Positions 57,491 through 60,471 of a stretch of 64,000 nucleotides of DNA are shown here, one piece after another; the stretch's first letter is position 1; each line of letters starts with the position of its first letter. The translations under genes and the position numbers were made by a program. The stretch is from Streptomyces marispadix (GTDB taxonomy: Bacteria > Actinomycetota > Actinomycetes > Streptomycetales > Streptomycetaceae). The stretch covers positions 2,728,001 through 2,792,000 of the forward strand of contig NZ_JAKWJU010000002.1 in NCBI RefSeq assembly GCF_022524345.1, in the 5' to 3' direction. The notes beneath the pieces are model-generated. The model was not told where the DNA came from and ran no database searches. It saw nothing but the letters and a program-made list of their open reading frames with translations.

Positions 57491-57766
57491 TCAACCCCCG
57501 GCCACCGCGGGGATGATGGAGACACCGGCACCGTCCGGCGTCGGGGTCTCCAGGCCCTGCTCGAAGCGGACGTCGTCGTCGTTCACGTAGACGTTGACGA
57601 AGCGGCGCAGCTTGCCCGCGTCGTCCAGCACGCGGGCGCCGATGCCCGTGTGGTTGCGCTCCAGGTCGGCCAGCACCTCGGAGAGGGTCGCGCCCTCGGC
57701 GCTCACCTCCGCCTGCCCGCCGGTGTAGGTACGCAGGATCGTCGGGATACGGACGTTCACGCTCAT
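57491..57766 (-). CDS. MoaD/ThiS-family sulfur carrier protein
   Basis: The 91-residue ubiquitin-like protein has a beta-grasp fold (VNVRIPTILRTYTGGQAEVS, FVNVYVNDDDVRFEQG, VSIIPAVAGG) and the C-terminal Gly-Gly that is thiocarboxylated in sulfur carriers such as MoaD, ThiS and CysO. Its ATG overlaps the stop of the threonine-synthase-like gene (ATGA), so the two are made together under a SAM-I riboswitch. In context it most likely supplies sulfide to that PLP enzyme for homocysteine synthesis; a molybdopterin role is unlikely, as no moa gene is near. In known systems an activating E1-like enzyme and a JAB-type protease are encoded elsewhere. Confidence 0.88.
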   Translation of the reverse strand: MSVNVRIPTILRTYTGGQAEVSAEGATLSEVLADLERNHTGIGARVLDDAGKLRRFVNVYVNDDDVRFEQGLETPTPDGAGVSIIPAVAGG

Positions 57767-59058
57767 GATGCGAGACCAGCCTCTCGGAAGGAGTCCAGGT
57801 TGGGACGGATGACGGCGGTCGGACCGGTGGTGGGTGCCACCGCGTCCAGGGTCTTGAGGCCGTCGCCCGTGTTGAGGACGACGGTCGTGAGGGCCGGGTC
57901 GAGCCTGCCCTCCTCGATCAGCTTCTTCGTGACGCCCACGGTGACGCCTCCCGCGGTCTCGGCGAAGATGCCCTCGGTCCGCGCGAGCAGCTTGATCGCG
58001 TCGACGATCCGCGGGTCGTCGACATCCTCCACCGCGCCGCCCGTACGGCGTGCGATGTCCAGAACGTACGGGCCGTCGGCGGGGTTTCCGATGGCGAGCG
58101 ACTTGGCGATGGTGTCGGGGCGCACAGGCCGTACGACGTCGTGCCCGTCCTTGAAGGCGCGGGAGACCGGGGAGCATCCCTCCGCCTGTGCGCCGAAGAT
58201 CCGGTAGGGCCTGTCCTCGACCAGGCCGAGGGCGATCAGCTCCTTCAGGCCCTTGTCGATCTTCGTGAGCTGCGAGCCGGAGGCGATGGGGACGACGAGC
58301 TGGTCCGGGAGGCGCCAGCCGAGCTGTTCGCAGATCTCGTACGCGAGGGTCTTTGAGCCCTCCGCGTAGTACGGGCGGAGGTTGACGTTGACGAAGCCCC
58401 AGCCCTCGCCGGCGGGGTCGCCGATCAGCTCGGAGCAGAAACGGTTCACGTCGTCGTAGTTGCCCTCGATGCCGACGAGTTCGCCGCCGTAGACGGCCGC
58501 CATGACGACCTTGCCCTGCTCCAGGTCGTGCGGGATGAAGACGCACGAGCGCAGGCCCGCGCGGGCGGCGGCGGCGCCGACCGCGCCCGCGAGGTTGCCC
58601 GTCGAGGAGCAGGAGAGGGTGGTGAAGCCGAAGGCGCGTGCGGCCTCGACGGCGATGGCGACGACGCGGTCCTTGAAGGAGTGCGTCGGGTTGCCGGAGT
58701 CGTCCTTGATGTGCAGGGAGCCGGTGACGCCGAGTTCACGGGCGAGCCGGTCCGCCCTTACGAGCTTGGTGAAGCCGGGGTTGGTGTTGGGCTTCGCCGC
58801 CACGTCCTCGGGGACGGGCAGCAGCGGTGCGTACCGCCAGATGTTGTCGGGACCCGCCTCGATGCGCTTGCGCAGCCCCTCCGTGTCGCCGCCGGGGAAG
58901 TCGTACGCGATCTCCAGCGGCCCGAAACACGCCTCGCAGGCGAAGACCGGGCCGAGTGGGGTGCGCTCGCCGCACTCGCGGCAGGAGAGCGCGGCGGCGG
59001 GGCCGAGCGAGACCCCCACGGTGTCGGCGGGAGTGCCGGCGGCAGCTTGAACAGCCAT
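57763..59058 (-). CDS. Threonine-synthase-like PLP enzyme, probable homocysteine synthase using a sulfur carrier
   Basis: The 431-residue fold-type II PLP enzyme has an N-terminal zinc ribbon (C26, C29, C41, C44) and the Schiff-base lysine K129 in PTHSFKDRVV. Further conserved blocks are CSSTGNLAGAVGAAAARAGL and VVPIASGSQLTKIDKGLKEL. By similarity it would be called threonine synthase (thrC). A SAM-I riboswitch upstream and a coupled MoaD-type carrier downstream argue instead that it replaces the phosphate of O-phosphohomoserine with sulfide to give homocysteine, a route described in Streptomyces (MetM with carrier MetO, as I recall). No hom or thrB gene is adjacent. The ATG at 59058 fits the family. 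Confidence 0.85.
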   Translation of the reverse strand: MAVQAAAGTPADTVGVSLGPAAALSCRECGERTPLGPVFACEACFGPLEIAYDFPGGDTEGLRKRIEAGPDNIWRYAPLLPVPEDVAAKPNTNPGFTKLVRADRLARELGVTGSLHIKDDSGNPTHSFKDRVVAIAVEAARAFGFTTLSCSSTGNLAGAVGAAAARAGLRSCVFIPHDLEQGKVVMAAVYGGELVGIEGNYDDVNRFCSELIGDPAGEGWGFVNVNLRPYYAEGSKTLAYEICEQLGWRLPDQLVVPIASGSQLTKIDKGLKELIALGLVEDRPYRIFGAQAEGCSPVSRAFKDGHDVVRPVRPDTIAKSLAIGNPADGPYVLDIARRTGGAVEDVDDPRIVDAIKLLARTEGIFAETAGGVTVGVTKKLIEEGRLDPALTTVVLNTGDGLKTLDAVAPTTGPTAVIRPNLDSFREAGLAS

Positions 59059-59079
59059 GATTCGGCGAGGCCCTTTCTC

Positions 59080-59226
59080 CTCATCTTCCCCGTGACGTAT
59101 CTCGCCACGAGCCGGAATTGGCACCTTCCCGAGCCGGGAGCCTCGCGATGTCATGTCGCTGGTACGAGACCGGCTGGAGGGTTGCCGGGGCTTCAACGGG
59201 CCGTTCCCTCTGCCCCTCTGGATGAG
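59080..59226 (-). ncRNA. SAM-I (S-box) riboswitch
   Basis: Read on the minus strand, the 147-nt element has P1 formed by CTCATC (59221-59226) and GATGAG (59080-59085). The conserved core follows in order: CAGAGGGGCAGAGGGA, then GGCCCGTTGAAGCCCCGGC and AACC of the P2 kink-turn and pseudoknot, a P3 arm, GGAAGGTGCCAATTCC of P4 and the J4/1 region GGGGAA. This is the SAM-I consensus, not SAM-IV. The GAGGAG next to the 3' strand of P1 lies about 18 bases before the start codon, so ligand binding could hide the ribosome site. It controls the threonine-synthase-like and MoaD genes. Confidence 0.93.
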
Positions 59227-59373
59227 CGGTGTGAAGTTGTCACGCGGCGGCGCCGAGGCACCGGGCCGGACCCGGCATGCGCTCGCCGTCGGCGTTGTTC
59301 AAGACTGTAACCGACAGGCCTGTACGGCGAGACAGGCGTCCGAACCGCGAGATGGATCACAGGGAGTGGCCGC

Positions 59374-60471
59374 GTGCTGGAGGAAGTCGAGCGGTGGCTG
59401 GAGCGGCGATCGTACTCGTGCGGCGACCGTCCGCTGCCGCGGCTGCTGGCGGCCAAGCGGGCCACGGGCTCCCGTGTCAGCGTCGTGCTGCCCGCGCTGA
59501 ACGAGGAGCGGACCGTCGGCCGGATCGTGTCGGTGATCCGGCATGAGCTGATGGCGCGGGATGCGACGAACCTCACGCCGACGAACCTCACGCCGACGAA
59601 CCTCACGCCGACGGACCGCAAGCCGACGGACCGCGAACTGACCTGCCCCGAACTGACGGGCCGCGCGCCGGCGGACGCCGGGGCGCACGCGCTCGTCGAC
59701 GAGCTGGTGGTGCTGGACTCCGGCTCGACGGACCGTACGGCCGCGGTCGCCGCCGCGGCAGGCGCCAGAGTCGTACACCGCGACGAGGTGCTGCCGAGGC
59801 TCCCGGCGCTGCCCGGCAAGGGCGAGGTGCTGTGGCGTTCGCTGCTGGCGACGAGCGGCGACGTCGTCTGCTTCGTCGACGCCGATCTGGAGGACTTCAC
59901 CGCCGACTTCGTCTCCGGTGTCGTAGGGCCGCTGCTCACCGATCCCCGGCTGTGCCTGGTGAAGGCGATGTACGACCGGCCGCTGGGCGGCGACCCGGCA
60001 GGCGGCGGCCGGGTCACGGAGCTGGTGGCGCGCCCGCTGCTCAATCTGCACTGGCCTCGCCTCGCGGGGTTCGTGCAGCCGCTCGGCGGGGAGTACGCGG
60101 CCCGTCGCGAACTGCTGGAGCAATTGCCCTTTCCCGTGGGCTACGGGGTCGAACTGGCGCTGCTCGTCGACTCGTTGCACACCGCGGGGCTCGACGCGCT
60201 CGCGCAGGTCGACGTCGGCGTGCGGCGCCACCGCCACCAGGACGGGCAGGCCCTCGGGCGGATGGCGGCCGCGATCCACCACACGGCACAACTGCGGCTT
60301 GCGCGCGGCAGCCGCATGGTCCGCCCGACGCTGACTCAGTTCGAACGGAGCACGGAGGGCGCGGGCGGCTTCGGCTCCGGCGGGTTCGCGGCACGCAGCC
60401 ACGAGGTCGACACCGTCGAGCGGCCACCGATGCGGGAGATCGCGGAGTACGCGGACCGCCGCGCGGCATAG
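59374..60471 (+). CDS. gpgS: Glucosyl-3-phosphoglycerate synthase
   Basis: This 365-residue GT81/GT-A glycosyltransferase transfers glucose from an NDP-glucose to 3-phosphoglycerate, the first step to glucosylglycerate and, in mycobacteria, to methylglucose lipopolysaccharide. Motifs: VSVVLPALNEERTVGRIV, VVLDSGSTDRTAAVAAAAGA, DVVCFVDADLEDFTADF (metal-binding DxD-like) and FVQPLGGEYAARRELLEQLP. Residues of about 65-99 are an extra insertion built from seven pentapeptide repeats (TNLTP-like). AGGGAG lies seven bases before the GTG start. It is divergent from the riboswitch operon and followed by otsA. Confidence 0.92.
   Translation: MLEEVERWLERRSYSCGDRPLPRLLAAKRATGSRVSVVLPALNEERTVGRIVSVIRHELMARDATNLTPTNLTPTNLTPTDRKPTDRELTCPELTGRAPADAGAHALVDELVVLDSGSTDRTAAVAAAAGARVVHRDEVLPRLPALPGKGEVLWRSLLATSGDVVCFVDADLEDFTADFVSGVVGPLLTDPRLCLVKAMYDRPLGGDPAGGGRVTELVARPLLNLHWPRLAGFVQPLGGEYAARRELLEQLPFPVGYGVELALLVDSLHTAGLDALAQVDVGVRRHRHQDGQALGRMAAAIHHTAQLRLARGSRMVRPTLTQFERSTEGAGGFGSGGFAARSHEVDTVERPPMREIAEYADRRAA
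59566..59670 (+). repeat. In-frame 15-bp tandem repeat inside gpgS
   Basis: Seven 15-bp units: three identical copies of ACGAACCTCACGCCG (59566-59610) followed by four diverged copies to 59670. They encode TNLTP three times, then TDRKP, TDREL, TCPEL and TGRAP, forming a loop before the conserved VDELVVLDSGSTD strand. Confidence 0.95.

Follow-up and report, generated by a model that had tools for sequence, protein, structure and literature searches.

Why does a gene for a threonine-synthase-like enzyme stand behind a SAM-I riboswitch and directly before the gene of a sulfur carrier? The locus that raises this question lies in a window of 64,000 nucleotides (the whole stretch of DNA analysed) from Streptomyces marispadix (contig NZ_JAKWJU010000002.1, positions 2,728,001 to 2,792,000). 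We conclude, with a probability of about 0.9, that it is a metM-metO operon under the control of a SAM-I riboswitch, providing an O-phosphohomoserine-dependent route to homocysteine that uses the MetO thiocarboxylate. Judged from its sequence, the gene very probably belongs to the methionine pathway, and the label ‘threonine synthase’ is a likely misannotation. The MetM/MetO interpretation had been put forward in the preliminary description, along with the statement that such a pathway had been described in Streptomyces; the interpretation is supported, and the pathway is real and already known in the same genus, going by the excerpts of PMC12172450 that describe it. According to these, Hasebe et al. 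(2024, Appl Environ Microbiol 90:e01247-24) identified MetM of Streptomyces strains as a homocysteine synthase, which converts O-phosphohomoserine to homocysteine; the excerpts also liken metO of S. albulus to a sulfur carrier gene and place a SAM riboswitch upstream of metM.

Both genes lie on the reverse strand. The first, metM (57763..59058), runs from an ATG at 59058 to a TGA at 57763 (431 codons) and encodes a threonine-synthase-like PLP enzyme of 431 residues with an N-terminal Cys4 element. The second, metO (57491..57766), runs from an ATG at 57766 to a TGA at 57491 (91 codons) and encodes a ThiS/MoaD/CysO-type sulfur carrier of 91 residues with a Gly-Gly end. The stop codon of metM and the start codon of metO overlap as ATGA, the carrier terminates in VAGG and it matches PF02597 (ThiS, 62.5 bits, cut-off 22.5), which confirms the earlier claim of a Gly-Gly carrier gene overlapping the threonine-synthase-like gene in this way; the limits given for the whole element, 57491-59226, were accurate to within two bases. 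The metM product matches PF00291 and, in a profile search, TIGR00260 thrC (265.6 bits, cut-off 167.1), a model that passes MetM and ThrC alike. NCBIfam was tried as a means of telling the two enzymes apart and failed, the next model being PRK08197 at 253.2 bits, below its cut-off of 303. The three top named database matches to MetM are 94% identical to it and all come from Streptomyces, and the named entries among the best 120 database matches are annotated as threonine synthase. The AlphaFold2 model of MetM has a mean pLDDT of 90.8; in a Foldseek search with it, threonine synthases took the first 21 places among the PDB structures, led by 2zsj_A (E 1.8e-29, 34% identity). For MetO the top PDB matches are 3dwg_C (105.3 bits) and 4n6e_B (100.4 bits), the former of which we take to be CysO of M. 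tuberculosis (entry title: 9.5 kDa culture filtrate antigen).

The preliminary description had reported a clear SAM-I aptamer before the threonine-synthase-like gene and proposed that it be scored with the Rfam SAM model. An Rfam scan matched RF00162 at 59228-59078 on the reverse strand over the full model (1-108) with 79.0 bits (E 6.1e-17, cut-off 44.4), ending 19 nt before the ATG, so that the claim stands. One arm of this aptamer (59078..59228) is enlarged by an insert relative to the Rfam consensus. The window has no other gathering-level Rfam match, and this is the sole RF00162 match reported from the 6.7 Mb genome, for which 150 of the 417 first-look candidates were scored. The 19 nt that separate the aptamer from the ATG (59059..59077, reverse strand, GAAAGGGCCUCGCCGAAUC) likely contain the ribosome binding region; within them GAUGAGGAGAAAGGGCCUC is identical in the window and in eight other compared leaders of the genus. 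Folded by itself the 199-nt leader gave a z of 0.18, and 107 of 200 shuffled sequences were equally or more stable. A 7-nt pairing seen by eye between the enlarged aptamer arm and the region before the AUG was dropped because it is not conserved in all leaders of the genus. Inspection of related loci by eye also showed, at L153 and L038, a GAGGAG or GAGAGGA that resembles a Shine-Dalgarno sequence and overlaps the aptamer at its 3' end, and at L127, L129 and L048 a hairpin with a T run downstream of the aptamer. SAM most likely turns the switch OFF. Elsewhere in the window, a gene at 59374-60471 that appears glycosyltransferase-like (the name being guessed from its sequence) contains a 15-base unit repeated three times in tandem and in frame (TNLTP) at 59566-59610.

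MetM and ThrC can be told apart by their substrate loops. The MetM form, NxNxRxxYxEGSKT (scored as NxNxRxxYxEG[ST][KR][TS]), was present in 127 of 130 MetM rows (loci L027-L156) and in none of six ThrC rows, all of them from Actinomycetota, and the ThrC form NSxNxxRxEGQKT (NSxNPxRxEGQKT) was present in all six ThrC rows and in none of the 130 MetM rows; the window protein carries the MetM motif and lacks that of ThrC. Of the exceptions (L062, L065 and L076), L062 and L076 retain RxYYAEGSKT and in L065 the loop was not found in the matched stretch. Alignments show the ThrC-form loop also in the Aquifex and Bacillus ThrC proteins of solved structure. A midpoint-rooted maximum-likelihood tree, built from the six ThrC rows and 52 of the 130 MetM rows, places the two kinds in separate clades at 100/100, with the window protein in the MetM clade. 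The N-terminal Cys4 pattern CRxC...CxxCFGPLE fits 111 of the 130 MetM rows; among the remaining 19, the last pair is longer by one residue in 14, and cysteines have been lost from the other five, all cyanobacterial (L123, L142, L147, L148 and L156). In four of these five metO adjoins, and the sequence of L147 ends 113 nt downstream. The motif and a MetO neighbour together offer a simple means of discriminating MetM from ThrC across the six phyla encountered among the best 80 of 589 relatives.

Comparison with a bona fide ThrC of the same genome, which the preliminary description had suggested, was possible: a separate ThrC (L002; TIGR00260, 306.1 bits) is 37% identical to the window protein. 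Its gene directly follows that of homoserine dehydrogenase, and after it comes the gene of a GHMP-family kinase, presumably homoserine kinase. In this genome, which is 98.93% complete, the best match to MetX was 22.1 bits over only 54 of 351 positions, and MetA/HTS gave no match. Of three ThiF-family proteins that exceed the Pfam cut-off, two pass no NCBIfam model; the third is identified by the MoeZ model (744.8 bits, cut-off 647), which gives the genome an E1 capable of charging a carrier. A mec-cysO-cysM cluster lies elsewhere in the genome, its Mec belonging to PF14464. The CysO frame of the genome (L010:2700-3305, reverse strand) extends about 24 residues beyond Gly-Gly and MetO stops at Gly-Gly; several other MetO proteins have a few extra residues after it.

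The distribution of metM was followed in 296 Actinomycetota genomes, that of the window included, with at most five first-look candidates scored per genome. The window MetM found a match at 1e-60 in 112 of them, and after four rows at 34-39% identity (G034, G179, G195 and G267) had been dropped there were 108 MetM genomes. The match is at least 379 bits in 107 of these and is split over two contigs in G127; it is also cut in G017, G058 and G159. ThrC was found at 1e-60 as well in 103 of the 108, and was not found at that threshold in G058, G097, G149, G274 and G275. At the loci taken from whole genomes (50 of the 112 genomes, window included) metM is followed by metO on its own strand in 42 cases. 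Leaving the window aside, 37 of the remaining 49 have a SAM-I match upstream of metM, none being found at L040, L046, L047, L049, L050, L051, L054, L056, L062, L064, L065 and L070. From named genomes the best 80 of 589 relatives were kept, and these belong to Actinomycetota, Cyanobacteriota, Chloroflexota, Aquificota, Armatimonadota and Nitrospirota. Among them metO lies downstream of metM at 75 of 80 loci; it was not seen at L095, L132, L145, L147 and L153, and in L132, L147 and L153 the sequence after metM is only 801, 113 and 594 nt. An RNA scan of 40 of these 80 loci, 20 cyanobacterial and 20 non-cyanobacterial, found SAM-I at 15 of the latter, including both Chloroflexota scanned (not at L081, L140, L145, L149 and L155), and at none of the 20 cyanobacterial loci. 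Across the 296 genomes MetM and MetX occur together in 22, MetM only in 86, MetX only in 81 and neither in 107 (Fisher p 8e-5, kinship ignored). The threshold for MetX was E 1e-30, and the model cut-off of 500 bits was not reached by any match in the 296 genomes and 14 controls. As kinship is uncorrected and the MetX calls all fall below the model cut-off, this mutual pattern is a tendency only. Among the nine sampled genomes of the genus of the window, three have MetM together with MetX at E 1e-30 (G107, G161 and G182) and six, including that of the window, are without MetX.

In eight genomes whose metM has no adjacent metO, a search for the carrier gave top scores between 61.8 and 108 bits in seven, and of only 31 bits in G245 (84% complete). 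The match is the single one in G204, G022 and G003, and lower-scoring ones, from 26.7 to 50.7 bits, accompany it in G037, G007, G111 and G175. Six of the seven best matches adjoin cysM, and the one of G037, close to the end of its contig, adjoins mec and moeZ. Both Frankia genomes have a single match, adjoining mec and cysM, and Hydrogenobacter (L145) and Pseudanabaena (L095) each have a single match with no cysM or mec within 1.5 kb. Since the best or sole carrier sits beside cysM or mec/moeZ where metO is absent at metM, it is plausible, by elimination only and with about an even chance, that one carrier serves both cysteine and methionine synthesis. The loci of the best carriers beside cysM or mec/moeZ (L169-L175, L186 and L187) come from nine MetM genomes without adjacent metO, and in five of them the carrier is the sole match.

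Thiocarboxylated MetO is reportedly the sulfur donor for MetM in Streptomyces. If the window operon works in this way, the C-terminal glycine of MetO would be adenylated and thiocarboxylated, most likely by the MoeZ of the genome (E1 plus rhodanese), and O-phosphohomoserine, which would be supplied by the homoserine kinase of the threonine branch, would be bound by MetM. On PLP, elimination of the phosphate would be followed, probably in this order, by addition of the MetO thiocarboxylate to the gamma carbon to yield homocysteine, which may be freed from the carrier either by thioester hydrolysis or by an S-to-N shift and a JAMM protease. In a Nitrospirota locus (L155:1161-6032) CysM-like, ThiF, MetM, MetO, ThiF and JAB genes are consecutive, an arrangement that points to the protease being used in some lineages. 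Homocysteine would be methylated to methionine and, at high SAM, the aptamer would be expected to fold and the operon to be shut, given the predicted OFF sense.

Plants join cysteine to O-phosphohomoserine, and S. marispadix could similarly obtain homocysteine mainly by transsulfuration, with a PRK07811-type enzyme joining the two compounds and a lyase freeing homocysteine. A protein of this type is present, as L011 passes the cystathionine gamma-synthase model PRK07811 (676.3 bits, cut-off 513), and this, like the 22 of 296 genomes that have both MetM and MetX, is a point against the metM-metO operon as the route to homocysteine; the 20 cyanobacterial loci scanned without finding SAM-I and the five of 108 MetM genomes lacking a ThrC match at 1e-60 weigh on the same side. 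The second strong PF01053 protein, however, is a PRK07582 cystathionine gamma-lyase, which suggests the reverse direction; a third (L013) reaches 28.3 bits. No cystathionine beta-lyase model was above its cut-off for the two strong proteins (best 25 of 43 and of 42 models), and MetX and MetA, the makers of the usual substrate, were not found in this 98.93% complete genome, so that we regard transsulfuration as very unlikely to be the main source. The frequency with which MetO adjoins MetM (42/50 and 75/80 loci, the latter among the best 80 of 589 relatives) and the presence of a ThiS-family carrier in all eight and all four searched genomes without adjacent metO (that of G245 being weak, 31 bits) also argue against MetM using free sulfide in the cell, with MetO accessory or feeding another acceptor. 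This we consider unlikely, although metO was not seen beside metM in 8/50 and 5/80 loci (best 80 of 589) and sulfide was tried as the sulfur source, citing Hasebe et al., for a relative from Microcystis (excerpts of PMC12172450).

The same relative from Microcystis, which shares 51.6% identity with MetM of S. albulus, bears on whether the window gene might encode an additional threonine synthase under SAM control, or a bifunctional enzyme, its adjoining carrier serving something else. According to the excerpts of PMC12172450 it was active in vitro both as a threonine synthase and as a threonine deaminase and gave only an unidentified peak near methionine, with no methionine rise in cells and no clear homocysteine, and this result is a warning against assigning one function to the whole family. 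The assignment in Streptomyces depends on the 2024 study as this paper describes it. The window protein itself passes the TIGR00260 thrC equivalog cut-off and shares with its named relatives, among the best 120 matches, the annotation discussed above. Nevertheless, a second threonine synthase is highly improbable, because a canonical ThrC is already encoded beside homoserine dehydrogenase, ThrC also occurs in 103/108 MetM genomes, the ThrC loop motif is missing from the window protein, and the SAM-I switch and adjoining MetO found in many lineages fit methionine. In the excerpted text of PMC12452182 thrC appears only under T-boxes in Bacillota, and no catalytic work on threonine synthase beyond PMC12172450 was found in the literature searched.

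Relatives of the window MetM may also account for methionine synthesis in Aquifex. In 2018 three species were listed as being without a known homocysteine route, Aquifex aeolicus among them (an excerpt of PMC5764234). A protein of A. aeolicus, P0162, is full-length, 85% identical to the Hydrogenobacter MetM used as query, and has, besides the Cys4 element, the loop motif of MetM; it is not the solved Aquifex ThrC (2zsj), the two matching each other with 197 bits. Other Aquificaceae with MetM are L140 and L145 (best 80 of 589 relatives). An Acidimicrobiaceae MAG (L078) has MetM with metO, and Acidimicrobium ferrooxidans, a second of the three species in the 2018 listing (PMC5764234), is a member of this family. 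P0162 is a concrete candidate for filling the gap in homocysteine synthesis that the excerpt of PMC5764234 states for Aquifex. We think the odds somewhat better than even that MetM fills this gap in both Aquificota and Acidimicrobiaceae and that, in several actinomycete lineages without adjacent metO, one CysO-type carrier feeds both cysteine and methionine. If the Microcystis result holds, the function of the family is not uniform and the Aquifex reading is therefore weakened. The presence of MetM in A. aeolicus and Acidimicrobiaceae may be new, though Hasebe et al. 2024 may already state it; a connection between the Aquifex gap and MetM was not found in the portion of the literature searched, most subscription papers lying outside it.

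The closest known system is MetM/MetO of S. albulus which, on the excerpted account, shares with the window the threonine-synthase-like enzyme, the carrier gene, the upstream SAM riboswitch and apparently the genus; no difference in kind was found. The fold of MetM is common to ThrC (PDB 2zsj, 6cgq, 1uim and 2d1f), from which the window enzyme is set apart by the motif of its substrate loop, by the N-terminal Cys4 element and by its genomic context and regulation. The CysM/CysO route transfers carrier-borne sulfur onto a phosphorylated amino acid by means of a PLP enzyme of the Pfam family of MetM. The likeness to CysM/CysO/Mec+ of M. tuberculosis (PDB 3dwg) extends to the carrier, chain 3dwg_C being the closest in the PDB to the window MetO, but the window enzyme is ThrC-like rather than CysM-like, its expected acceptor is O-phosphohomoserine, and the genome has its own mec-cysO-cysM cluster. 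In Wolinella succinogenes the acceptor enzyme is said to be a MetY-type O-acetylhomoserine sulfhydrylase of an unrelated PLP fold. That route (Krishnamoorthy and Begley 2011) resembles the one proposed here in making methionine via a carrier thiocarboxylate, whereas, in contrast to HcyS/MetY, the window enzyme belongs to PF00291 and not to PF01053.
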